The translations under genes and the position numbers were made by a program. Positions 49,156-59,625 of a stretch of DNA of 64,000 nt are shown piece after piece. The DNA comes from Streptomyces sp. RPT161. Its GTDB lineage: Bacteria; Actinomycetota; Actinomycetes; Streptomycetales; Streptomycetaceae. Position 1 is the first letter of the stretch; the number at the start of each line of letters is the position of its first letter. The stretch lies in NCBI RefSeq assembly GCF_027533845.1, contig NZ_JAPZVN010000010.1, positions 1 to 64,000 of the forward strand, read 5' to 3'. The notes beneath the pieces are model-generated. The model saw only the letters and a program-made list of their open reading frames with translations. It had not been told where the DNA came from and did not search any database.

Positions 49156-49722
49156 ATGAAGAACGGACAGGTCGCTCTCGCGCTCGCGGGCGGCTACCTC
49201 TTGGGGCGCCTCCACAAGGCGCGGTGGGCGTTGGCACTTGCCGGCCTGGCGGCGGGGAAGCGGCTCCGTGCGAACGGGGGCGGACTCCCCGCCGGACTAC
49301 TGAAATCGCCGCAAATGGGGCGGCTCGCCCAGGACATCCGTAGCGATCTGTTGACGGCTGGCCGTAGCGCGGCCGTCGCGGCGGTTGGCACTCGGATCAA
49401 CGAATTGAGCGACAAGATGGGGGAGCGCGCAGCCTCCCTCCGAGAACCGCCTGGCGAGGCTGAGGAGGACAGCGACGAGGACGGTGGGGAGGAGACGCCC
49501 CGCAGGCGCAAGGCTGCGCGGCGCGGCGGCGCAAGTAGTCGTGGCAGCCGCAGCAGGAGTGGGACCGAGGGCGCGTCGAAGTCGAGTGGATCCGCGCGAG
49601 CATCCACAAAGCCTTCGTCGGCGGGGAGCCGGACGAAGAGGGCAGACCGAGAAGGAACATCCGGTGGACGGTCCGCCGCTGGGACCGCTTCCGGCAGGCC
49701 GGCGCGGCGGAGCCGAGGGTGA
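49156..49722 (+). CDS. gas-vesicle cluster protein with basic Ser/Arg-rich tail (GvpY-like)
   Basis: This 188-aa protein opens with KNGQVALALAGGYLLGRLHKARWALALAG, a Gly-rich hydrophobic stretch that may be one membrane or vesicle-contacting helix. A helical part follows (50-95), then an acidic patch (101-113), then a 75-residue Arg/Ser/Gly-rich disordered tail. Streptomycete gas-vesicle clusters carry a similar small gene, called gvpY in the literature as I remember it; the match here is by start and context only. GGGAG precedes the ATG. It is the first gene of the operon and lies six bases before the SRPBCC gene. It may bridge vesicle and membrane, but its role is unknown. Confidence 0.7.
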   Translation: MKNGQVALALAGGYLLGRLHKARWALALAGLAAGKRLRANGGGLPAGLLKSPQMGRLAQDIRSDLLTAGRSAAVAAVGTRINELSDKMGERAASLREPPGEAEEDSDEDGGEETPRRRKAARRGGASSRGSRSRSGTEGASKSSGSARASTKPSSAGSRTKRADREGTSGGRSAAGTASGRPARRSRG

Positions 49723-49728
49723 TGACGT

Positions 49729-50811
49729 ATGGCTGATCGTTCGGGCAAACGTGCTGTGAGTGGCGCTGGTGGTCTCCTTCAGGAACTGCCCACAGATCGT
49801 CTACTCGAGGAGGCGCAGAATCTGATCACTGCGGCGGGTGAGCGGGCCCTCACGGGGGTCGCGGGCAAGATCGGGGATGCGACGGAGCGGCTCACCGATT
49901 ACGCGAACAACGGCGGTACGGGGCTGACCGCCCTGCTCACCGGTGGGCGCAGCCTGACGGAGGGGAAGTCCATGGTCACCTCCTTGCTGAATGCCGGAAT
50001 GACTCAGGTCAAGGAGAAGGTGAAGGATGTCGTCGGCGGCCACGACGGAGGCGGCGACAAGGGTAAGAAGATCAAGGTCACCAACATCGTCGAAAGCATC
50101 GACGTGGGCGTGCCAGTGTCACTCGCCTACAACCAGTGGACCCAGTTCGAGGACTTCCCGACCTTCATGAAGAAGGTGGAGAGCGTCAAACAGCAGTCTG
50201 AAACCGAGCTCGACTGGAAGGCTCAGGTCTTTTTCTCGCACCGCAAGTGGAAGGCCAGAGTCATCGAGCAGGTGCCCGATGAGCGCATCATCTGGGAGTC
50301 GGAGGCGGAGAAGGGGCATGTCGATGGGGCGGTCACCTTCCATGAGTTGACGCCTGACCTGACCAAAATCGTCATGGTTCTTCAGTACCACCCCCAAGGC
50401 TTTTTCGAGCGGACCGGGAACATATGGCGGGCTCAAGGGCGGCGGGCACGGCTGGAGCTCAAGCATTTCCAGCGCCATGTCATGACCGAGGCGATATTGA
50501 ACCCCGATGACATCCACGGGTGGAGGGGCGAGGTACTTGACGGAGAGGTGGTGCGCAGCGACGAGGAGGTGCGGGAGGAAGAAGAGGGCCGCGAAGAGCG
50601 GGGAACTTCAGCAGGGGAGGAAGAAGAAGGACGCCCCGAGGCCGAAGAGGGCCAAGAGGACGAAGAAGACCGTGACGACGAGGAGGGCGACGAGGAAGAA
50701 GCGGAGGGTGAAGAAGGGCCCGAGGACGACAGTGAAGCCGAGGACAACAGTGAGTCCGAGGACGAGCGGGCGCGACGTCCCCAGCGCCGGTCCGCGGAGA
50801 GGGCCCGGTGA
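49729..50811 (+). CDS. SRPBCC-domain gas-vesicle cluster protein with acidic tail (GvpZ-like)
   Basis: This 360-aa protein has three parts. Residues 1-110 are helical ([26 protein letters not shown]) and end in a Gly/Asp/Lys linker. Residues 116-262 form a polyketide-cyclase/START-like SRPBCC domain ([50 protein letters not shown]). Residues 277-346 are about two-thirds Asp and Glu, followed by an Arg-rich end. SRPBCC domains make hydrophobic pockets. Streptomycete gas-vesicle clusters contain such a gene (gvpZ in my memory). A chaperone role for vesicle proteins is plausible but unproven. Its stop overlaps the region just before gvpA. Confidence 0.8.
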
Positions 50812-50816
50812 GGGCG

Positions 50817-51269
50817 ATGACCGTAGCTAGTCGACAGGGGCAGTACCTGGACAGGCCCTCAGGGGGCGGTCTGGTCGAAGTGATCGACCTGATCTTGGAC
50901 AAGGGTCTGGTGATCGATGTCTATGTCCGGGTCTCCCTGGTGGGGATCGAACTTCTCACGATAGACGCACGAGTCGTAGTGGCAAGCGTTGATACCTATC
51001 TGCGCTTCGCCGAGGCCGTCAACCGACTCGATCTTGCCCGCAGTGGGACCGAGACGCGCGGCCTGCCGGGAATGATGGAAGAGATCCGCGAGGGAGGCGC
51101 CGAGCACAAGACGAAGGGTGTCCTGGAAGGCGTCAAGGACACCGTCGGCAACGTCCTTGGCGGTGGCGAGGGCGATGAGGAAGAAGACGAGGGCGAGCGC
51201 GAGGTGGAACACGAGGAACATCCCCAAGGCAGGTCTCGTCCTATGAGTCGCAAGGACCGACAACGATGA
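50817..51269 (+). CDS. gvpA: gas vesicle structural protein GvpA, extended streptomycete type
   Basis: This is a 150-aa GvpA-family protein. The conserved core at about residues 18-70 reads [48 protein letters not shown], the amphipathic helix-strand-strand-helix that builds the ribbed vesicle shell. An 80-residue tail follows, ending in an acidic stretch ([17 protein letters not shown]). Tails of this kind also occur in other streptomycete GvpA proteins as I recall. The ATG at 50817 is preferred because GvpA proteins often start MTV; a GTG nine bases earlier overlaps the upstream stop and is possible. This copy is closest to the structural subunit among the three GvpA-type genes. Confidence 0.88.
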
Positions 51270-51303
51270 GTCCGCGGCCAGCGCAGCACGTCGGGAGGCC
51301 GTT

Positions 51304-52077
51304 ATGTGCGCCTGCTACGTATACGGCGTGGTCCGGGAATCCGACACCGCCACCGCACTCGGAGACCTGCCCGCAGTCGGCAACCCCAACGCGCCCGTGA
51401 CATTCGTCCCGCACCGCGCCATCGCCGCGGTGGTGAGTGAAATACCCACCGACCGGCCGCTCGGTGCGCCGGAAGACCTACAGGCCCATGCCAGAGTGCT
51501 CAACACCCTGGCTGCCGCAGAGGCGCCCGTGCTGCCGTTCCGCTTCGGCACAGTAGTGGAGGACGCGCAGTCGGTCGCAGAGAATGTACTCGCCAGCGGC
51601 TACGACGCCTTCGTTGCCGCTTTGGAGCGTTTGAAAGGCTGTGCACAGTTCACGTTGAAGGCGCAGTACAACCAAGAGGCAGTATTGCGTGAAGTGCTGG
51701 ACGAGCGGCCCGACATCGTGAAGTTGCGGGAAGAGCTAGAGAAGTTGTCCGGCGAGGCTGGCTACTATCAGCGGATCGAACTGGGCCAGCTCGTGGCGGA
51801 AGCTGTCGCCGCCAAGGGTGACGCGGACGCGGCCTTGGTCCAAAAGTGCTTGGCGCCCTCGGCGGTCGCGACGGCCGTGTCGGAGTCCTCATCGGAGGAC
51901 GGCCTCGTGGATGCTTCCTTCTTGGTGGAGGACGCGCGCCGAACGGACTTCGAAGAAGCCGCAGAGGACCTGGCCCGTCGCTTGCACGGCAGGCTCCGGC
52001 TCCAGTTGTTGGGGCCGCTCGCGCCGTACGACTTCGTGGCGAATGCCATGGGCGACCGCGGGGAGGAAGAAGGTTAA
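51304..52077 (+). CDS. gvpF: gas vesicle protein GvpF/GvpL family, first copy
   Basis: This 257-aa GvpF/L protein opens with CYVYGVVRESDTATALGDLPAVG. It contains the family's LPFRFGTVVED block near residue 80 and LKAQYNQEAVLREV near 120. The ending, GRLRLQLLGPLAPYDF, is typical. GvpF is thought to bind GvpA and help nucleate or chaperone vesicle growth. Length and both domains appear complete. It is placed between gvpA and gvpG, the same neighbourhood as in other streptomycete clusters, and its stop lies two bases before the gvpG ATG, which suggests translational coupling. Confidence 0.92.
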   Translation: MCACYVYGVVRESDTATALGDLPAVGNPNAPVTFVPHRAIAAVVSEIPTDRPLGAPEDLQAHARVLNTLAAAEAPVLPFRFGTVVEDAQSVAENVLASGYDAFVAALERLKGCAQFTLKAQYNQEAVLREVLDERPDIVKLREELEKLSGEAGYYQRIELGQLVAEAVAAKGDADAALVQKCLAPSAVATAVSESSSEDGLVDASFLVEDARRTDFEEAAEDLARRLHGRLRLQLLGPLAPYDFVANAMGDRGEEEG

Positions 52078-52079
52078 GC

Positions 52080-52331
52080 ATGGGGTTGATCACTGGATTG
52101 CTCACCTTGCCGCTCGCGCCGGTCCGTGGCGTGATCTGGGTTGCCGAGCAGGTGCGTGACGAGGCCCTTCGGCAGACCGAGAACCCGAAGGCGCTGCGTC
52201 GGCGCTTGGCTGAGGTCGAGCGAGCACGGGACGCCGGAGAGATCCCTGAGGACGAGGCCGCTCGCCTGCAGGAGGACCTTGTGCGCCGCTTGCTGGCATC
52301 TGGGCCGCCGCTCGGCGGCCTGGAGGTGTGA
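52080..52331 (+). CDS. gvpG: gas vesicle protein GvpG
   Basis: This 83-aa GvpG protein opens MGLITGLLTLPLAPVRGVIWVAEQV, the conserved hydrophobic GvpG start. A charged helix follows (LRRRLAEVERARDAGEIPEDEAARLQEDLV). It is a small accessory protein needed for vesicle assembly, with probable helix-mediated contacts to GvpF and GvpL. The length is normal for the family. It begins two bases after the gvpF stop and ends three bases before the gvpO start. Confidence 0.93.
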   Translation: MGLITGLLTLPLAPVRGVIWVAEQVRDEALRQTENPKALRRRLAEVERARDAGEIPEDEAARLQEDLVRRLLASGPPLGGLEV

Positions 52332-52334
52332 GTC

Positions 52335-52802
52335 GTGCCCCGAGCAGGCAACGGGGGCCCGAGCGACTCCTCGCGCCACCGCCGCGACAGTCAAGACGCG
52401 CGGCGCCCCGCCTCCCGCAGGAAGGCGGCGCAAGGACGCGCGGAAGACTACGAGCGAAATACCCGGCGAGCAGGTTTGGAGCCCGTCGGCCACAACGAGA
52501 ACGAGGAGGACAAGGCCGAGAAGGCGCACCACCGCCAGCACTCGGCGATCACCGCACGGAAGGCGGCAAAGTGCGCCGCCGAGCAGGTGGCGGGCCTCAC
52601 CGGGCGGCAGCCCGAGAGCGTGACGTCACTGGAACGGACCGACAACGGATGGCGCGTCGGCATCGAGGTCGTCGAGTCCCACCGGATACCGGATTCCACG
52701 GACATCCTCGCGGTGTATCGCGTCGAGGTGGACGACCGGGGCGAGCTCATCTCGTACGGCCGTTCCGACCGGTACTACCGCGGCCGAGCAGAGGAGAAGT
52801 GA
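52335..52802 (+). CDS. gvpO: gas vesicle protein GvpO
   Basis: This 155-aa protein has a disordered, charged N-terminal half. The GvpO domain at about 70-150 reads KCAAEQVAGLTGRQPESVTSLERTDNGWRVGIEVVESHRIPDSTDILAVYRVEVDDRGELISYGRSDRYYRG. GvpO is a conserved assembly or regulatory accessory protein in haloarchaeal and actinobacterial clusters. The start is GTG, three bases after gvpG. In the S. coelicolor-type order I remember, gvpO is the first gene of the cluster; here it lies between gvpG and gvpJ. Confidence 0.92.
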   Translation: MPRAGNGGPSDSSRHRRDSQDARRPASRRKAAQGRAEDYERNTRRAGLEPVGHNENEEDKAEKAHHRQHSAITARKAAKCAAEQVAGLTGRQPESVTSLERTDNGWRVGIEVVESHRIPDSTDILAVYRVEVDDRGELISYGRSDRYYRGRAEEK

Positions 52803-52805
52803 GGT

Positions 52806-53249
52806 ATGAGTCAGCAGCCGGTGTGGAGCGGCGTCAGCAGAAGTCCTGCAACCTCACGTGAGGTGGCCCACCCGCAGCCGGCGAACCTGGCCGACATCCT
52901 TGAACGTGTCCTTGACAAGGGAATCGTCATCGCTGGGGACATCCGAATCAACCTCCTCGACATCGAGCTCTTGACGATCAAGATCCGGCTGATCGTTGCC
53001 TCTGTGGACAGGGCTCGCGAGATGGGCATCGACTGGTGGGAACACGATCCGTCGCTGTCTTCCGGAAAGCGCGATGTGCTTGAGGAGAACCGTCGTCTTC
53101 GCCAACGCATCGGTGAGCTCCAAGCGGGGCGGAACACGCAATCTGACGGTGCGATCGAGTCCGGGGGGCGACAGGCCGAGGAAGAGGCGCCACACCAGCG
53201 CCCGGACGACGAAGGAACCTCCGAGCAGAGCGGAGACGCGTCACCATGA
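52806..53249 (+). CDS. gvpJ: GvpA-family minor protein GvpJ
   Basis: This 147-aa protein has a GvpA-like core at about residues 25-75: NLADILERVLDKGIVIAGDIRINLLDIELLTIKIRLIVASVDRAREMGIDWW. The DRAREMGIDWW ending of the core is a mark of GvpJ-type minor proteins, which are thought to cap or nucleate vesicles. An acidic, Gln-rich tail follows. A short coiled coil (VLEENRRLRQRIGELQAG) follows the core. It overlaps gvpL by an ATGA junction. Confidence 0.88.
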   Translation: MSQQPVWSGVSRSPATSREVAHPQPANLADILERVLDKGIVIAGDIRINLLDIELLTIKIRLIVASVDRAREMGIDWWEHDPSLSSGKRDVLEENRRLRQRIGELQAGRNTQSDGAIESGGRQAEEEAPHQRPDDEGTSEQSGDASP

Positions 53250-54037
53250 CCGAAGACTTCGCAGTCTGGCTCTATGCGGTGGTCCCTGCCACACAGTGCG
53301 TGCAGACCACCGAGCTGACGGGCGTCGCGAGTGGGCCGGTGCGCCTCATCGCGGGGGAGGGCGTTTCGGCTGTCGTCGGATCCGTCCCGTTGAGTGACTT
53401 CGCGGAAGAACCCTTGCGGAACCACCTGGAGGATCTGTCCTGGCTGGAACAGACCGCTCGCGCACATCACCAAGTGATTGATGCGGTGGGCAACACAGGA
53501 GACGTGGTCCCCTTGCGGTTCGCCACGATCTACCACGACGACTCTGCTGTCAAAGACGTCCTGATGGAGCGCGCCGCCGATTTCGAAGCGGCCCTGGAGC
53601 GCGTTAGGGGGCGTACTGAGTGGGGAGTCAAGGCCTATGTAGACCCGGATGCACTCCCCACAACTCCCGAGCAATCCGGGGCGGATGACAGCCCCGGAAC
53701 TGCCTACCTCCTGCGTCGCAGAGCACAGCGGCAGGGACAGCAAGATGCGCAGCAGCGCGCGCTCCAGCGTGCGGAAGAGATCCGGACAGCGCTGAAGGAG
53801 GTGGCCACCCGCACCGTACAGCACCCGCCACAGGACGCTCGGCTCGCCCAGTACCGGGGGTGGATGGTCCTCAATGACTCCTACCTGGTCGATGACGATC
53901 GCGCCCAACAGTTCGCGGCACTGGTGACCTCATGTGACGCACGCTTCCCCGAGGTGCGACTGGAACTCAGCGGTCCCTGGCCGGCCTACTCCTTCACCGG
54001 GGACGAGGAAGAAGTGCAGCAGGGAGATACCACGTGA
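53246..54037 (+). CDS. gvpL: gas vesicle protein GvpF/GvpL family, second copy
   Basis: This 263-aa GvpF/L protein opens FAVWLYAVVPATQC. It has the VVPLRFATIYHDD block near residue 85, GVKAYVDPDALP near 128, a long charged helix (about 150-190), and the typical ending VRLELSGPWPAYSF. It is clearly diverged from the first GvpF/L copy. By position between gvpJ and gvpS it corresponds to gvpL of streptomycetes. ATGA and GTGA overlaps at both ends imply one tightly coupled translation unit. Confidence 0.9.
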   Translation: MTEDFAVWLYAVVPATQCVQTTELTGVASGPVRLIAGEGVSAVVGSVPLSDFAEEPLRNHLEDLSWLEQTARAHHQVIDAVGNTGDVVPLRFATIYHDDSAVKDVLMERAADFEAALERVRGRTEWGVKAYVDPDALPTTPEQSGADDSPGTAYLLRRRAQRQGQQDAQQRALQRAEEIRTALKEVATRTVQHPPQDARLAQYRGWMVLNDSYLVDDDRAQQFAALVTSCDARFPEVRLELSGPWPAYSFTGDEEEVQQGDTT

Positions 54038-54288
54038 GTACTTCGCGCGGCGAGGACTTGCCCAACGCGACGCCTCCCGCACTCCGGGGCCGACAAGTAG
54101 CTCTCGTCGACCTGCTCGACCGTGTGCTAGCCGGAGGTGTCGTCATCGCCGGAGAGATCACCCTGTCCATCGCCGATGTCGACCTCGTGCGGGTCTCCCT
54201 CCGCGCGCTCGTAGCGTCAGTGCGCGCAGCTTCAAGGCCGGACAGAGGCCGCCTCCCCGAGGAACTCCAAGAAGGAACCTCACGGTGA
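54034..54288 (+). CDS. gvpS: GvpA-family minor protein GvpS
   Basis: This 84-aa protein carries a short GvpA-like core: VALVDLLDRVLAGGVVIAGEITLSIADVDLVRVSLRALVASVRAA. It has almost no tail, unlike GvpA and GvpJ in this cluster. GvpS-type proteins are minor, probably shell-associated. The start is GTG inside the gvpL stop, and its own stop overlaps the gvpK GTG, so translation is coupled on both sides. Confidence 0.88.
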   Translation: MSTSRGEDLPNATPPALRGRQVALVDLLDRVLAGGVVIAGEITLSIADVDLVRVSLRALVASVRAASRPDRGRLPEELQEGTSR

Positions 54289-54701
54289 CCGGCATCGGCG
54301 ACAACAAGCCACGGCGCGACTCAGCAGCCGATGGCGACGAACGCAGCGAAGAGCCAGAACTGTCTGAAGGCACTGTAGTCGGCCGCCGAACTGGCGTCGA
54401 CCACGAGCCAGGAGTGGGCCGACGTGTCGCTATGGATCGTGAGTCGGTCGAGCGTGGGCTGGCGGGTCTGGTCCTGACCATTATTGAACTTCTACGGCAA
54501 CTGATGGAGCGTCAAGCGCTACGTCGCATCGACGAGGGCGACCTGACCGGACAGCAGGTCGAGGAGATCGGACTCACTTTGATGGCACTGGAGGAGCGGA
54601 TGACCGAGCTGCGCGAGCACTTCGGCCTGTCACCGGAAGACCTGAACATTGACCTTGGCCCGCTGGGCCCGCTTCTGCCCTGGGACCCCGGAACCGAATG
54701 A
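54285..54701 (+). CDS. gvpK: gas vesicle protein GvpK
   Basis: This 138-aa protein has a GvpK domain in its second half: VERGLAGLVLTIIELLRQLMERQALRRIDEGDLTGQQVEEIGLTLMALEERMTELREHFGLSPEDLNIDLGPLGPLL. The first 50 residues are polar and probably disordered. GvpK is a conserved assembly accessory of gas-vesicle clusters. The GTG start overlaps the gvpS stop, and family homology begins well inside, so an upstream start is not supported. It is the last gene of the operon; a transposase remnant begins within 20 bp of its stop and no terminator is obvious. Confidence 0.92.
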   Translation: MTGIGDNKPRRDSAADGDERSEEPELSEGTVVGRRTGVDHEPGVGRRVAMDRESVERGLAGLVLTIIELLRQLMERQALRRIDEGDLTGQQVEEIGLTLMALEERMTELREHFGLSPEDLNIDLGPLGPLLPWDPGTE

Positions 54702-54714
54702 CTTTGGTGGCTGG

Positions 54715-55564
54715 GATGTGACACGCTGCGCCACCAACTGCTGGGTCGGCAGCGCCAGATCGGCAAGCCCACACTCGCCGACACCGACCGCGCCGTGCTC
54801 GCTGGCCTCCTTCACCACCTCTCCGCCGACAAGCTGCGGCGCCTCCTTCATACGGTCCCGGGGCCGTTGTGCGGCCTGATATGCGCCATCCGAGGTGAAG
54901 GTGGCCGCATCCACGGTCTGGGTGAAGGACGCCGGCATCCCGCCAACTTCCAGGCGTGTCTCTGCTACCTGGACGGACTTTCTGCGCTCGCAAGCGGAGG
55001 CACTCCTGGCGTGTGACTTCTTCGAGACCGTGACCTTGACCGGGGCTCGGCTGTACGTGTTCGCAGTGATCGAGCATGCAACCGGAAGATCCGGGTTCTC
55101 GGTGCGACCGCGCATCCCACCGCCTCCTGGGTGGTGCAGGCCGCCAGGAACCTCGTCATGGACCTTGAGGACGCCGGATGCCGGGCGCGCTACATGATCA
55201 GGGACCGGGACGGGAAGTTTTCCGGCACTGTTCGACGCGATCCTCAATGATGCGGGCATCAAGGTCGTACTCACCGGAGCCCGCATGCCCCGCATGAACT
55301 CCATCATGGAAAGGTGGGTGCAAACCTGTCGACGCGAGCTGCTGGACCGCACCCTGGTCTGGAACCAGCCCCACCTGCTCCACGCGTTGCGCGAGTTCGA
55401 GCACTTCTACAACGAGTACAGGCCACACCGAGGGCTCACCAACGCCCGCCCGCTACACCCACTCCCCCAACCGGTCACCGAACGGTGGCAAACTACCCAC
55501 CCCGACATTCGAAGGCGTGAACGCCTGGGCGGCCTCCTCCACGAGTACCGAGATGCGTCCTGAC
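54715..55564 (+). pseudogene. integrase-core transposase remnant downstream of gas-vesicle genes
   Basis: Pieces in several frames give the N-terminal region (LRHQLL, KPTLADTDRAVLAGLLHHL, about 54730-54860) and the linker (STVWVKDAGIPPTSRR, FLRSQAEALLACDFFETV, about 54910-55035). The core follows (RKIRVLGATAHPTASWVVQAARNLVMDLEDAG, RYMIRDRDGKF), then the C-terminus (RRELLDRTLVWNQPHLLHALREFEHFYNEYRPHRG, RRRERLGGLLHEYR). An internal deletion and at least two frameshifts (near 55085 and 55215) inactivate it. It shares its C-terminal motifs and orientation with the remnant at 45834-46246. Confidence 0.78.
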
Positions 55565-55868
55565 CTCGACGGATGAGGTATTCGGCAATCGCACCCTCAG
55601 CACCCCCACCCCGATGCCGCCCGCGGCCAGTTCAAAGGACCGACCTCCAGCAGGCCCTCCAGGAGGCCCGTCCAGGGGAGGCCGGTGCCGGGCCCAGGCC
55701 ATGGCCCGCCGAGCACACGATGAGCCAGCCGAGAGCCATGGCGCCGGTGGCAGCCGCAGTCAACTCGGCGTAGGGGCAGGGACAGCAGCATGTACTGGGC
55801 GCCTGCCTCCTACACGCGAGAGCAGCGCAGCCGTCGGCCCCAACCCGCCGTCGGCCCTCAAGCTGCGG
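55565..55868. other. 304-bp stretch with no recognised feature
   Basis: There is no protein-like frame, hairpin with T tract or repeat of note. It separates the transposase remnant from the minus-strand pair of small genes. Confidence 0.6.
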
Positions 55869-56063
55869 CTAGTCAGGGGTGGGTGGCGGCCACGGCGACG
55901 AGGTCGTCGTGGTGGTCGCCTGCGGCTTGCGGTACGCGAAGTACGCGGCGTCTTCGAACGCGGCGATAATCCTGCCGTCGTCGTCAGTGCGCGGAAAGAA
56001 GTGCGCCGCCAAGGCCAGGGCGACCAGCAGCCCGGCCTGCTCTACTGTCAGTTCGTCGCTCAC
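55869..56063 (-). CDS. small hypothetical ORF overlapping the SUKH/nuclease gene
   Basis: This 64-aa frame starts at GTG inside the 3' end of the upstream gene. It reads SDELTVEQAGLLVALALAAHFFPRTDDDGRIIAAFEDAAYFAYRK, then a Thr/Pro-rich end. The composition is more protein-like than the overlapping end of the neighbour, so either translation is coupled or a frameshift separates what was one protein. I know no family for it. No catalytic motif is seen. Confidence 0.4.
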   Translation of the reverse strand: MSDELTVEQAGLLVALALAAHFFPRTDDDGRIIAAFEDAAYFAYRKPQATTTTTSSPWPPPTPD

Positions 56064-56592
56064 CGGGCAGCACCCGCTTGACGGTCTCGACGACCAGTTC
56101 AAGGAAGTCCGTAGCGGTGGCGGCCTTCATCCCGTGCCGCCGACACCCCTCGGTGAGCTGGCGTATCTGGCTCTCGCGGTGGTCGGGCACGAGGATCCAT
56201 CCGGCCTTGCCCTTGTCCCCGCCGTCCGCCCGCAACTTGCTGACCAGGTGGTTCGACCACCGGTAGTCCTTAAAGTCCACGGCGAAGAGAGTCTGTTGCT
56301 TCTCCCCGTCTCCACGCGCGATCAGCATGTCGGGCTCGTCGAAGTCCCCCATCTCCGCTGTGTACCGAGCGTTGTCCGTTTCCTCCCGCACGGGAGAAGA
56401 GGGGATATAGACCTCGATCCCTTCGCCGTAGACCTCCATGTAGACCCGGTAGTCGTCGGGAAAGCCGTGGCCGTAGTCGACCATCTGCGTCCAGTCGATG
56501 ATGTTCCCGCCACTGATCGGTGGGGCAACCAGAGCCCGAAGCCCGCGGACCACCTCCGCCGGGGAAGTCATCCCCTCAGACTCGCCGCCCAC
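55984..56592 (-). CDS. SUKH (SMI1/KNR4)-like start fused to PD-(D/E)XK-like nuclease domain
   Basis: This 202-aa frame has two unlike parts. Residues 10-65 (LRALVAPPISGGNIIDWTQM, FPDDYRVYMEVYGEGIEVYI) resemble the first third of a SUKH-superfamily immunity domain. Residues 85-172 (EPDMLIARGDGEKQQTLFAVDFKDYRW, then DKGKAGWILVPDHRESQIRQLTEG) look like a PD-(D/E)XK nuclease core, with P87-D88 and D106-x-K108. The last 25 residues are Arg/Gly-rich and may be out of frame. The GTG at 56592 is chosen because AGGAG lies six bases upstream; an ATG at 56571 has a poor site. It may be a true fusion, or two truncated genes joined by recombination near insertion sequences. Confidence 0.55.
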   Translation of the reverse strand: MGGESEGMTSPAEVVRGLRALVAPPISGGNIIDWTQMVDYGHGFPDDYRVYMEVYGEGIEVYIPSSPVREETDNARYTAEMGDFDEPDMLIARGDGEKQQTLFAVDFKDYRWSNHLVSKLRADGGDKGKAGWILVPDHRESQIRQLTEGCRRHGMKAATATDFLELVVETVKRVLPGERRTDSRAGRAAGRPGLGGALLSAH

Positions 56593-56956
56593 GTCACTCT
56601 CCTGATCACGTGCACCAGACCGCGCTGCCTCATGCGCGCACGTGACCACAACTGAGCCGAGGATTCCGACGTCAAGCCTTCGCCGAGGACAGTCCAGCGT
56701 GCGACACCCGAGATCGGACTTCCCTCGAAGCGAGCCGCAACCGTCGGAAAACGCCGTAGGAGTACACCTGCTCGACCAGGCCAAGAATGCCTACCAACCA
56801 TCTCCGAGAGCTGGGTCGAGCTTCAAGAACGCCGTCGCCGAGTAAGGCGCCCCCTTGGAATCGACGTTGAAGTTGACGCCCCAACTCACCCACCGCGCGA
56901 GGCCGTTCGTGATCGCGGTTTCGGTCCCCCCGGTGGCCCCGGCACTGGTCCACCTC
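56593..56956. other. 364-bp intergenic stretch
   Basis: No protein-like frame is seen on either strand. It contains the upstream region of the SUKH/nuclease gene, including its AGGAG site, and the end of the Asp23/AmaP operon lies to the right. No clear promoter or terminator was found. Confidence 0.5.
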
Positions 56957-57535
56957 TCATCCGATGCGACCGCCTGCGGGGCGGGGGGTAATGTCCAGGC
57001 GGATCCGGGCGGGCAGGTCCTCTTGGTCGAGGACGCGTCGTAGGTGGGTCAGGGCTTGTTGTTCGATCCTGGCGCGGATGGGGCGGGGGTCGGCGTCGGC
57101 GGCGAGGGTGATGCGCAGGTCGAGGCGAGGGTGGCGGGAGCTGTGGATGAGACGGGCACGTGCGCGGTGGACGCCTCGGTACGACTGCAGTTCGTCCTCC
57201 AGTGCGTCGGTGACCGCGACGGCGCTCAGTCGGGTCGCGCCCCGGCTGAGGTCGGCCTCAAGGGCGATGGTCCGCACTCCTGCCCGCCGTAGCTGAGCCA
57301 GGGCCCATACCAGGCCGGCGACGGCTAGCAGGGCGGCTGCGGCGCCGACTGCGGGCCATACCCAGCCCGAGGCCGCCGCGTAGTGACGTTCACCGGGGAC
57401 GAGCAGTGCGGCGTCCGGACCGGCCGCGCCGAAGAACCCAGTGCCACGTAGCAGAGCCAGCACGCCGCCAGCCAGCAGCACCAGGCCGACCAGGGCCAGT
57501 GCGATCCGGTTGATGCGGTGCGGGGGACGGTTCAT
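56957..57535 (-). CDS. alkaline-shock membrane anchor protein (AmaP-like)
   Basis: This 192-aa protein has two membrane segments (about 9-30 and 56-80). A cytoplasmic domain follows (AVAVTDALEDELQSYRGVHRARARLIHSSRHPRLDLRITLAADADP, ending LRRVLDQEDLPARIRLDI). AmaP-type proteins hold Asp23 at the membrane in Gram-positive bacteria. It is the last gene of a six-gene operon, overlapping the gene before it by ATGA. The layout suggests an anchor for the Asp23-like proteins encoded upstream in the same operon. Confidence 0.82.
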   Translation of the reverse strand: MNRPPHRINRIALALVGLVLLAGGVLALLRGTGFFGAAGPDAALLVPGERHYAAASGWVWPAVGAAAALLAVAGLVWALAQLRRAGVRTIALEADLSRGATRLSAVAVTDALEDELQSYRGVHRARARLIHSSRHPRLDLRITLAADADPRPIRARIEQQALTHLRRVLDQEDLPARIRLDITPRPAGGRIG

Positions 57536-58068
57536 GGCCGTCTCCCGGTGGTGCGCACTTTCACGGTCACCCGGTACTCGCGGTCGGTGCGCAGCGCCTC
57601 CAACCGCTCGTGGACCGCGTCGCGGACCAGGTCGTGCAGTTGCTCGATGCTGCGCCGCGGTGTGGTGGCCTTGACCTTGACCCGGCGGCGGCCGATCCGT
57701 GTGTGGTGGGCGTCAACGCCGTCGATCTGCCCTACGGCCTCGGCCACGCTCCGGCACAGGCCGCGCCGTGTGGCGACGGTGCGGGTGTGTTCGTCCGCGC
57801 TGAGGAGCGGGACCAGGCGGCGCCGACCGCGGGAGGCTGCCGCGCGCAGCAGGAGCAGGCCCAGGACGGCGATCGCGGCCGCCACCGCCATGACCGTGAT
57901 GTCGCCCCAGTGGCTATCTGCGAGGTGTGTGGCCAGGGCCTGCTGCGGCCAGACCGTTGTGGGGTGGCCTGCTGCCACCGCGATCACGTCGATGAGCACG
58001 CTCGTGCCGGCCGCGGTCAGCACCAGGGCGGTTAGCGCGCACAGGATCCGGTGCCCGACGCCGCTCAT
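57532..58068 (-). CDS. membrane protein of the Asp23 operon (DUF6286-like)
   Basis: This 178-aa protein has two hydrophobic segments (about 8-33 and 54-75). A soluble domain follows (RTVATRRGLCRSVAEAVGQIDGVDAHHTRIGRRRVKVKATTPRRSIEQLHDLVRDAVHERLEAL). The two-helix plus alpha/beta layout resembles the DUF6286 proteins found in streptomycete Asp23 operons. It overlaps both neighbours by ATG/TGA junctions. It probably sits in the membrane beside the AmaP-like protein; no enzyme motif is present. Confidence 0.72.
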   Translation of the reverse strand: MSGVGHRILCALTALVLTAAGTSVLIDVIAVAAGHPTTVWPQQALATHLADSHWGDITVMAVAAAIAVLGLLLLRAAASRGRRRLVPLLSADEHTRTVATRRGLCRSVAEAVGQIDGVDAHHTRIGRRRVKVKATTPRRSIEQLHDLVRDAVHERLEALRTDREYRVTVKVRTTGRRP

Positions 58069-58478
58069 CCCATCCTCCGCGCCGGCCGCGGCGGTGGCGG
58101 CAGCCGTGCGACGTCGATGTCGACGTGGTCCACGTGCAGACCGGTCAGGTGTTCCACTCGGTCAATGACATGGGCGCGTAGCCGGCGGGTGGTGGCGCGC
58201 GCTGAGTCCGCCCAGATGAGGGAGACGGTGATGGTCAGGCCGGTGACGTGGCCGTCGACCCAAGCCGTCACCCGCGCCGGTCGGTCCATGCCGCGATGTC
58301 CGAAGGGCATTCCCAGCACCCGGGGCACATCACCGCCGATCCATTCGGACTCCTGCACCACCCGGGCCGCGATCTTCTCCACCACCCGTTCGGCAATTAC
58401 GGTTCGGCCCGGGCCGCCTGCTGGACCAAACGCCTGATCCTGCGGCGCGCCAGTGGCGCCGCCGGGGGGGCCGTTCAC
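58065..58478 (-). CDS. Asp23/Gls24-family protein, second copy
   Basis: This 137-aa protein has an Asp23 core: RTVIAERVVEKIAARVVQE near the start, ARVTAWVDGHVTGLTITVSLIWADSARATTRRLRAHVIDRVEHLTGLHVDHVDIDVARL to the end. The N-terminal 25 residues are Gly/Pro-rich. The GTG at 58478 overlaps the stop of the small membrane protein gene, which supports that start. Asp23 proteins form membrane-associated assemblies during envelope or alkaline stress. Confidence 0.82.
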   Translation of the reverse strand: MNGPPGGATGAPQDQAFGPAGGPGRTVIAERVVEKIAARVVQESEWIGGDVPRVLGMPFGHRGMDRPARVTAWVDGHVTGLTITVSLIWADSARATTRRLRAHVIDRVEHLTGLHVDHVDIDVARLPPPPRPARRMG

Positions 58479-58678
58479 ACCCGCGTCCGGGAGCGGTGGA
58501 TACCGGCGCGGTAGGCATCGCGGGATGCCCGCAGGTCGAATCCTCCCTCGACGATCCAGCCGACGAGCAGGCCGGCCAGCCCCACGACCAGGACCACGAC
58601 GAAGGCGACGATGCCGCCGAAGACACCGGCGAAGCCCAGAGCCACACCAAAGCCCAGGCCGAGAGCGGTAGGAGTCAC
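58475..58678 (-). CDS. small two-segment membrane protein of the Asp23 operon
   Basis: This 67-aa product has a long hydrophobic stretch (LGLGFGVALGFAGVFGGIVAFVVVLVVGLAGLLVGWIVEGG), probably two membrane helices, and a short basic C-terminus. It occupies the place of DUF2273-type small proteins in Asp23 operons. The GTG at 58678 has GAGG about six bases upstream; an earlier GTG at 58690 lacks a site. It is probably a scaffold for Asp23-like proteins at the membrane. Confidence 0.7.
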   Translation of the reverse strand: MTPTALGLGFGVALGFAGVFGGIVAFVVVLVVGLAGLLVGWIVEGGFDLRASRDAYRAGIHRSRTRV

Positions 58679-58731
58679 AGCGCACCTCACAGCAGAAATA
58701 GCGGAAGTAAACAGGCAGCGGCTGGCGAGCC

Positions 58732-59076
58732 TTATCCGTCGGGAGGCAGATCGCCGAGGTCCAGGTCCTCGATGACCACGTCCACCATCGCTCCTGGGGC
58801 GACGGCGGCCACGGCGTCGCGCACCTGCACCCCGATCTCCGCCATCGTATGGCCGTGACGGCCGACCACGTGCACGCGCACCGCTTCTCCTGCGACCTGC
58901 ACCCCGGCCACGCGCCGCCCCGGCAGACAGGCAGCTGCGGCGCCGACTGGGCCCGCGGACAGACGGCTGACCGCCGGACAGCCGCCAGCGGCGGCCGCGA
59001 TCGCGTCCGGGTCCCGTTCGAGCGCTGGCGAGGCTTCGGCCGCGGCAGCGGGGCCGGATATCTGGGATCGCCTCAT
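58732..59076 (-). CDS. short Asp23-like protein
   Basis: This 114-aa protein has an Ala-rich N-terminal half and a C-terminal half that resembles the last strands of Asp23 domains (VRVHVVGRHGHTMAEIGVQVRDAVAAVAPGAMVDVVIEDLDLGDLPPDG). The usual N-terminal helix is degraded or replaced. The ATG overlaps the stop of the first Asp23 gene by ATGA. Its role is likely to modulate or assemble with the full-length Asp23 proteins. Confidence 0.68.
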   Translation of the reverse strand: MRRSQISGPAAAAEASPALERDPDAIAAAAGGCPAVSRLSAGPVGAAAACLPGRRVAGVQVAGEAVRVHVVGRHGHTMAEIGVQVRDAVAAVAPGAMVDVVIEDLDLGDLPPDG

Positions 59077-59555
59077 TGCACGCGCGTGGCTGGGCCTGCG
59101 CCCGTGTCCTCGTCCGTGTCCCCGGCCACGCGGAGATCGTCCACCGCGATGTTCACCTCGACGACTTCTAGACCGGTCATGCCTTCGATCGCCTGGATGA
59201 TGTTGCGGCGGACCGCGGCCGCCAGCTCCGCGATCGATACGCCGTACTCGCAGACGATGACCACGTCTACGGCGGCTTGCGTCTCCCCGACCTCCACCGA
59301 CACGCCCTGAGTGACGCTCGGCCGCCGTGAGCCCGGGATGCGCTCGCGTACCACGCCGATCGCCCGCGTCCCCCCGGTCCCCAGGTCGTACACCCCCGCC
59401 ACCTCACGGGCGGCGATGCCGGCGATCTTCTGCACCACCACGTCCGCGATCGTGGTGCGCCCCCGTTCCGTCACCAGGCTCTTGGGCCCGGTCATGGAGG
59501 AAGGCGGGTTGTTGGAGGCGCCGCTGCCTGCATCGGGTTCTGCGGACATTCTCAT
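59073..59555 (-). CDS. Asp23/Gls24-family envelope stress protein, first gene of operon
   Basis: This 160-aa protein is a full Asp23-family member. The core reads RTTIADVVVQKIAGIAAREVAGVYDLG, VTQGVSVEVGETQAAVDVVIVCEYGVSIAELAAAVRRNIIQAIEGMTGLEVVEVNIAVDDLRV. It is a cytoplasmic protein tethered to the membrane by AmaP in other Gram-positives and linked to cell-envelope homeostasis. The ATG at 59555 has GGTGG about seven bases upstream; a second ATG two codons later is possible. It leads an operon of six overlapping or closely spaced genes. Confidence 0.9.
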   Translation of the reverse strand: MRMSAEPDAGSGASNNPPSSMTGPKSLVTERGRTTIADVVVQKIAGIAAREVAGVYDLGTGGTRAIGVVRERIPGSRRPSVTQGVSVEVGETQAAVDVVIVCEYGVSIAELAAAVRRNIIQAIEGMTGLEVVEVNIAVDDLRVAGDTDEDTGAGPATRVQ

Positions 59556-59579
59556 CAGCTTGCCACCTTCCGATGCGAT

Positions 59580-59625
59580 TAGAGCCCTTTCATATGTTAT
59601 TCACTATTCTGAGACATGCCACACG
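59580..59625 (-). promoter_or_regulatory. AT-rich putative promoter of the Asp23 operon
   Basis: A short AT-rich island in GC-rich DNA lies 25-70 bp before the first Asp23 ATG. On the minus strand it reads AATAGTGAATAACATATG, with TAACAT as a possible -10 box. No good -35 box is visible. Confidence 0.35.

Follow-up and report, generated by a model that had tools for sequence, protein, structure and literature searches.

The window analysed here is the whole 64,000-nucleotide stretch of Streptomyces sp. RPT161 DNA (positions 1 to 64,000 of contig NZ_JAPZVN010000010.1). An open reading frame (ORF) on its minus strand, 55984-56592, encodes 202 amino acids followed by a stop codon. Its 5' part resembles a SUKH-like gene and its 3' part the end of a pPIWI-RE REase gene. 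The features of the locus, with the evidence for each in parentheses, are as follows.

About 54722-55598, plus strand: insertion sequence (IS) relic with an rve_3 integrase core, split into several frames (Pfam, plasmid matches).
55599-55916, no strand assigned: unassigned DNA, ~320 bp, that separates the IS relic from the point where the helicase breaks off (nothing matched in the plasmid collection).
55869-55916, minus strand: tail of the helicase-stub reading frame, lacking helicase homology (ORF list, matches).
55917-56063, minus strand: first 49 codons of a PprDinG-type helicase gene, whose homology breaks off at 55917-55922 (protein and DNA matches, PADLOC).
55984-56592, minus strand: chimeric ORF, a SUKH-like 5' piece in frame with a pPIWI-RE REase 3' piece (ORF, Pfam, relatives, start comparison).
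56077-56302, minus strand: 3' end of a REase gene, the last ~75 codons including DFKDY, with the helix-1 E and the WP-motif W missing (Pfam, PADLOC, DNA match, alignment).
56302-56317, minus strand: junction, the interval in which SUKH-like homology gives way to pPIWI-RE homology (DNA matches, codon comparison).
56318-56592, minus strand: the initial ~90 codons of a SUKH-like (SMI1/KNR4-type) gene, interrupted by an in-frame gap of 12 codons (relatives, DNA matches).
56593-56720, minus strand: DNA upstream of the SUKH-like start, homologous to the DNA upstream of the intact SUKH-like gene L062 (72% over 56418-56720).

The initial annotation placed the ORF beside insertion sequences, and one such element, the single IS relic, does lie ~320 bp away. 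Of 30 plasmid records, the 10 listed share 71-79% identity with the relic. When the flank 52000-59600 is compared with two other genomes of the genus, the matches fall mostly in the IS relic, and the rest are short pieces from the gas-vesicle side or the right flank. Neither genome has both flanks on one contig, so no empty site can be read. A gas vesicle gene cluster occupies about 49700-54700 of the window, with GvpL/GvpF and Gas_vesicle domains at 53246-54288 (Pfam), and short DNA matches suggest that a second gas vesicle cluster may be present elsewhere in this genome, on contig C96. Nothing in the window is matched by Rfam.

A ribosome-binding site, AGGAG at 56599-56603, precedes the GTG at 56592. 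This GTG, the start used in the initial annotation, has better support than the ATG at 56571, because GATCAGGAG and GACGTGG recur unchanged and with the same spacing in L062. Two residue numberings are in use, one for the 202-aa version that starts at GTG 56592 and one for a 195-aa version; residues 76-165 of the latter are residues 83-172 of the former. NCBIfam has no family for the chimeric ORF, and a sequence search of solved structures with the chimera returned nothing meaningful (the best match, E 1.1, is a ferredoxin). An AlphaFold prediction of the chimera made without an alignment is uninformative (mean pLDDT 33.7, pTM 0.22).

The SUKH / SMI1-KNR4 superfamily has an immunity role. The N-terminal half of the ORF product had been read as the start of a SUKH domain, and this is likely right. 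Genes in genomes of the same family match it strongly, the best at E 4.1e-28 with 65% identity over residues 3-93, and identities in individual family genomes are 65% (G061), 57% (G089) and 56% (G142). The plasmid collection gives four weak matches (E 1e-2 to 0.5), all to this half only, and two of the four are annotated SMI1/KNR4. The ~90 N-terminal codons show 54-59% identity to the relatives L062-L064, two of which (L064 and L063) have printed frames that extend upstream beyond the likely start, and 34-42% to the more distant L074-L076. At the DNA level the homology to L062 covers 56720-56418 and 56379-56318. It includes ~128 bp upstream of the start and, as in the homology to intact relatives generally, takes in the ribosome-binding site and the GTG. 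The window ORF has no Pfam SUKH match, L062 reaches 22.1 bits for SUKH_6 against a cut-off of 27, and of five further SUKH-like relatives four score below threshold and one has no match. From these sub-threshold scores of relatives and the plasmid annotations, the name SUKH is likely rather than proven. A tandem pair of SUKH-like frames on one strand occurs at L076:4486-5760; the first has a sub-threshold SUKH_6 score and the second no Pfam match.

The homology to these relatives is that of an incomplete gene. Intact SUKH-like relatives are ~200 aa long, and the window keeps about 90 of those codons. Unlike its relatives, the window gene has a 12-codon in-frame gap that deletes the conserved FDNFL segment, which reads GEGxFDxF(L/V) in all seven relatives read, and it has lost its 3' part, which finds no match elsewhere in its own genome. 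There are two one-codon gaps besides, and the frame is maintained through all three gaps and the join.

The C-terminal half, initially described as a PD-(D/E)XK-type nuclease, can be assigned to a specific family of that type. Residues 83-172 (202-aa numbering) match PF18154, pPIWI_RE_REase, at 51 bits (curated cut-off 26.1, E 1.8e-13), and PADLOC's identically named model agrees on this half. PF18154 was surveyed in the family genomes, giving 105 matches in 94 of 394, the window's own match included. The window match begins only at position 23 of the 117-position profile. Starts at positions 1-3 are seen in 102 of the 104 other matches, and the remaining two, in G271 and G314, are weak. The DxxD, DxK and VP positions are occupied in the window protein by alignment. 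Two residues, the E of helix 1 and the WP-motif W that precedes DxxD, are lost from it and are invariant in 37 of 37 aligned REases, an alignment made of the best-scoring 30 of the 105 PF18154 rows plus seven triads and so favouring well-conserved sequences. The window REase is thus a domain without profile positions 1-22 and without these two residues. Its frame also has no native stop and reads on past the helicase start. In four relatives (L067, L068, L069 and L071) the REase domain closes a frame of 419-477 aa, which overlaps the start of a frame of ~1100 aa. The REase gene of genome G192 has a gene with an HTH_3/HTH_31 domain directly upstream (L069:3096-4364).

On the minus strand, the REase end is followed by a sequence encoding VSDELTVEQAGLLVALALAAHFFPRTDDDGRIIAAFEDAAYFAYRKPQA, which is 61% identical over 49 codons to the helicase start of L065. 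A helicase-start match lies downstream of the REase in all 14 REase neighbourhoods fetched (E 7e-19 to 5e-5), and the second gene was named PprDinG by PADLOC in the three that were scanned (315, 290 and 317 bits). The REase and helicase pieces form a single DNA match, for example 69.7% over 390 columns to L067 (window 56302-55918). This match to L067, which begins at 56302, is the longest of the pPIWI-RE DNA matches, and all 11 that reach the helicase stub end at 55917-55922. Since the REase piece is followed directly by the first 49 helicase codons, 55917-56302 can be read as one 386-bp scrap of a REase-DinG-pPIWI triad. Codon-position differences from seven relatives were compared for the REase piece and the helicase stub. 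Both show their largest differences at third positions, a pattern to be expected of changes that predate the join, and there is no clear sign of selection either way.

The SUKH-side DNA matches stop at 56317-56318, close to where pPIWI-RE homology begins. At the join the codons GAC TTC GAC GAG CCC GAC ATG CTG ATC GCG agree with three SUKH-like relatives and not with the five REase relatives compared. In the PD...D-x-K motif on which the nuclease reading had been based, D106 and K108 belong to the DFK of the REase motif, and EPDMLI falls to the SUKH side of the junction. The apparent EPD...DFK is a composite, because the codons of aspartates 78 and 81 (195-aa numbering) follow the SUKH-like gene, which leaves DFK alone as native REase sequence. 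Three SUKH-like relatives (in G061, G089 and G142) continue to align beyond the junction, as far as residue 93 or 106, in a weak stretch; these genes carry no REase.

Burroughs et al. (2013; PMC3702460) give the members of the pPIWI-RE three-gene system as a REase, a DinG-type helicase and pPIWI, in strictly conserved gene order. The window shows a REase 3' end followed directly by a DinG-type gene, in the order that they describe. It differs in keeping only ~75 REase and 49 helicase codons, and no pPIWI domain is found in the genome, so that the locus does not hold the three genes in order. In eight of ten compared neighbourhoods an RNaseH_pPIWI_RE domain lies 5.7-7.0 kb (start to start) downstream of the REase match; in the other two, G192 and the C2 locus of G154, it sits on another contig. 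In G192 the helicase gene is followed by a frame of 491 aa that carries pPIWI_RE_X alone (L069:9025-10497), and this locus is perhaps another decaying pPIWI-RE locus. A profile search of the window's own genome detects PF18154 nowhere except at this locus, and a helicase query of that genome finds only the 51-codon stub of the window. RNaseH_pPIWI_RE (PF13032) is silent in this genome and scores in 10 of 10 comparison genomes. The profile for pPIWI_RE_X (PF13111) is also silent, but so it is in the control genomes, which makes the RNaseH_pPIWI_RE search the informative one.

The chimera itself was sought in other genomes. Both halves occur together in one match in 0 of 393 other genomes drawn from the family and in 0 of 393 drawn from the class; the two draws overlap, and the counts of relatives in them are lower bounds, up to eight candidates having been scored per genome. 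The same join, whose absence from other genomes had been named at the outset as grounds for doubting a functional fusion, is thus seen in neither draw. No match to the chimera was detected in phage records, and scans of viral contigs and of proteins on genome contigs contain no relative of it. A degenerate DNA pattern spanning the junction occurs at 19 loci, and tblastn at E 0.01 detects no relative of the chimera at any of them. The chimera is also absent from the two other genomes of the genus. The join is known as one copy only.

We conclude, with a probability of about 0.9, that ORF 55984-56592 is a chimeric relic of two broken genes. The possibility that two truncated genes had been joined by recombination was raised in the initial annotation, and the three homology edges, at 56317-56318, 56302 and 55917-55922, bear it out. 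A pPIWI-RE triad of REase, DinG helicase and pPIWI genes would formerly have stood at the locus, or a piece of one would have been brought in. What remains would be 386 bp reaching from the tail of the REase gene into the first part of the helicase gene. Deletion or non-homologous recombination near 56302-56317 may have joined this scrap to the 5' end of the SUKH-like gene, and its other side would have been cut at 55917, not far from the IS relic. On this account, the simplest one, the relic would be what the loss of a pPIWI-RE island and of a SUKH-like gene left behind beside a degraded insertion sequence; we infer the order of events and any involvement of the IS. As the join is in frame and the ribosome-binding site and start of the SUKH side are kept, the ORF may be translated. 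Its product is most likely inactive, since it would combine half a SUKH-like domain without FDNFL and a REase without its first helix, and the probable lack of function is deduced from these sequence features. Against the relic stands the keeping of the frame through three gaps and the join, with intact start signals, more than would be required of a gene long dead.

A functional two-domain protein, with a SUKH-like recognition or partner-binding part and a minimal REase nuclease acting in defence or as a toxin, is very unlikely. The open in-frame ORF with its SUKH-side start signals speaks for it, as do the occupied DxxD and DFK positions and a DxxD-to-DFK spacing that, judged by eye on the alignment, falls inside the range of the relatives. 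The SUKH part, however, lacks the GEGxFDxF(L/V) segment found in seven of seven relatives and everything past about codon 90, the REase part lacks the E and W that all 37 aligned REases share, no relative in the family and class draws has both halves, and neither a partner helicase nor a PIWI gene was found in the genome. The working defence or toxin fusion raised initially is not supported; taken overall, a working fusion of any kind is very to extremely unlikely. One version of it is that the chimera was kept as a new protein, in which the SUKH-derived N-terminus would take the place of the REase's lost first helix and strand and provide the DxxD. Such a protein would be a minimal nuclease, or would counter incoming pPIWI-RE systems as a dominant-negative factor. 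We regard this as extremely improbable.

It is similarly exceedingly unlikely that the ORF is an assembly artefact in which two DNA pieces were mis-joined within the SUKH-like and REase genes. The homology edges are sharp and the genome is a 139-contig draft, but the missing pieces match nowhere in an assembly of 100% stated completeness, and a mis-join should leave the other halves on other contigs. That the frame is still translated into a harmless peptide that retains some RNA or protein binding, as the retained ribosome-binding site and start would allow, is hardly to be expected, and in sequence alone it cannot be separated from the chimeric relic.

As a chimeric relic, the ORF is most likely ordinary and has little significance as a new system; its 386-bp scrap would come from pPIWI-RE, an antiviral gene cluster already described in bacteria. 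It does indicate that a recombination joint can create what looks like a PD...DxK motif, with the aspartates here contributed by the SUKH-like gene, and it cautions that motif spacing in a short ORF is a poor guide to nuclease function. For this Streptomyces, the locus would mark a former pPIWI-RE operon, or an acquired scrap of one, in the genome.
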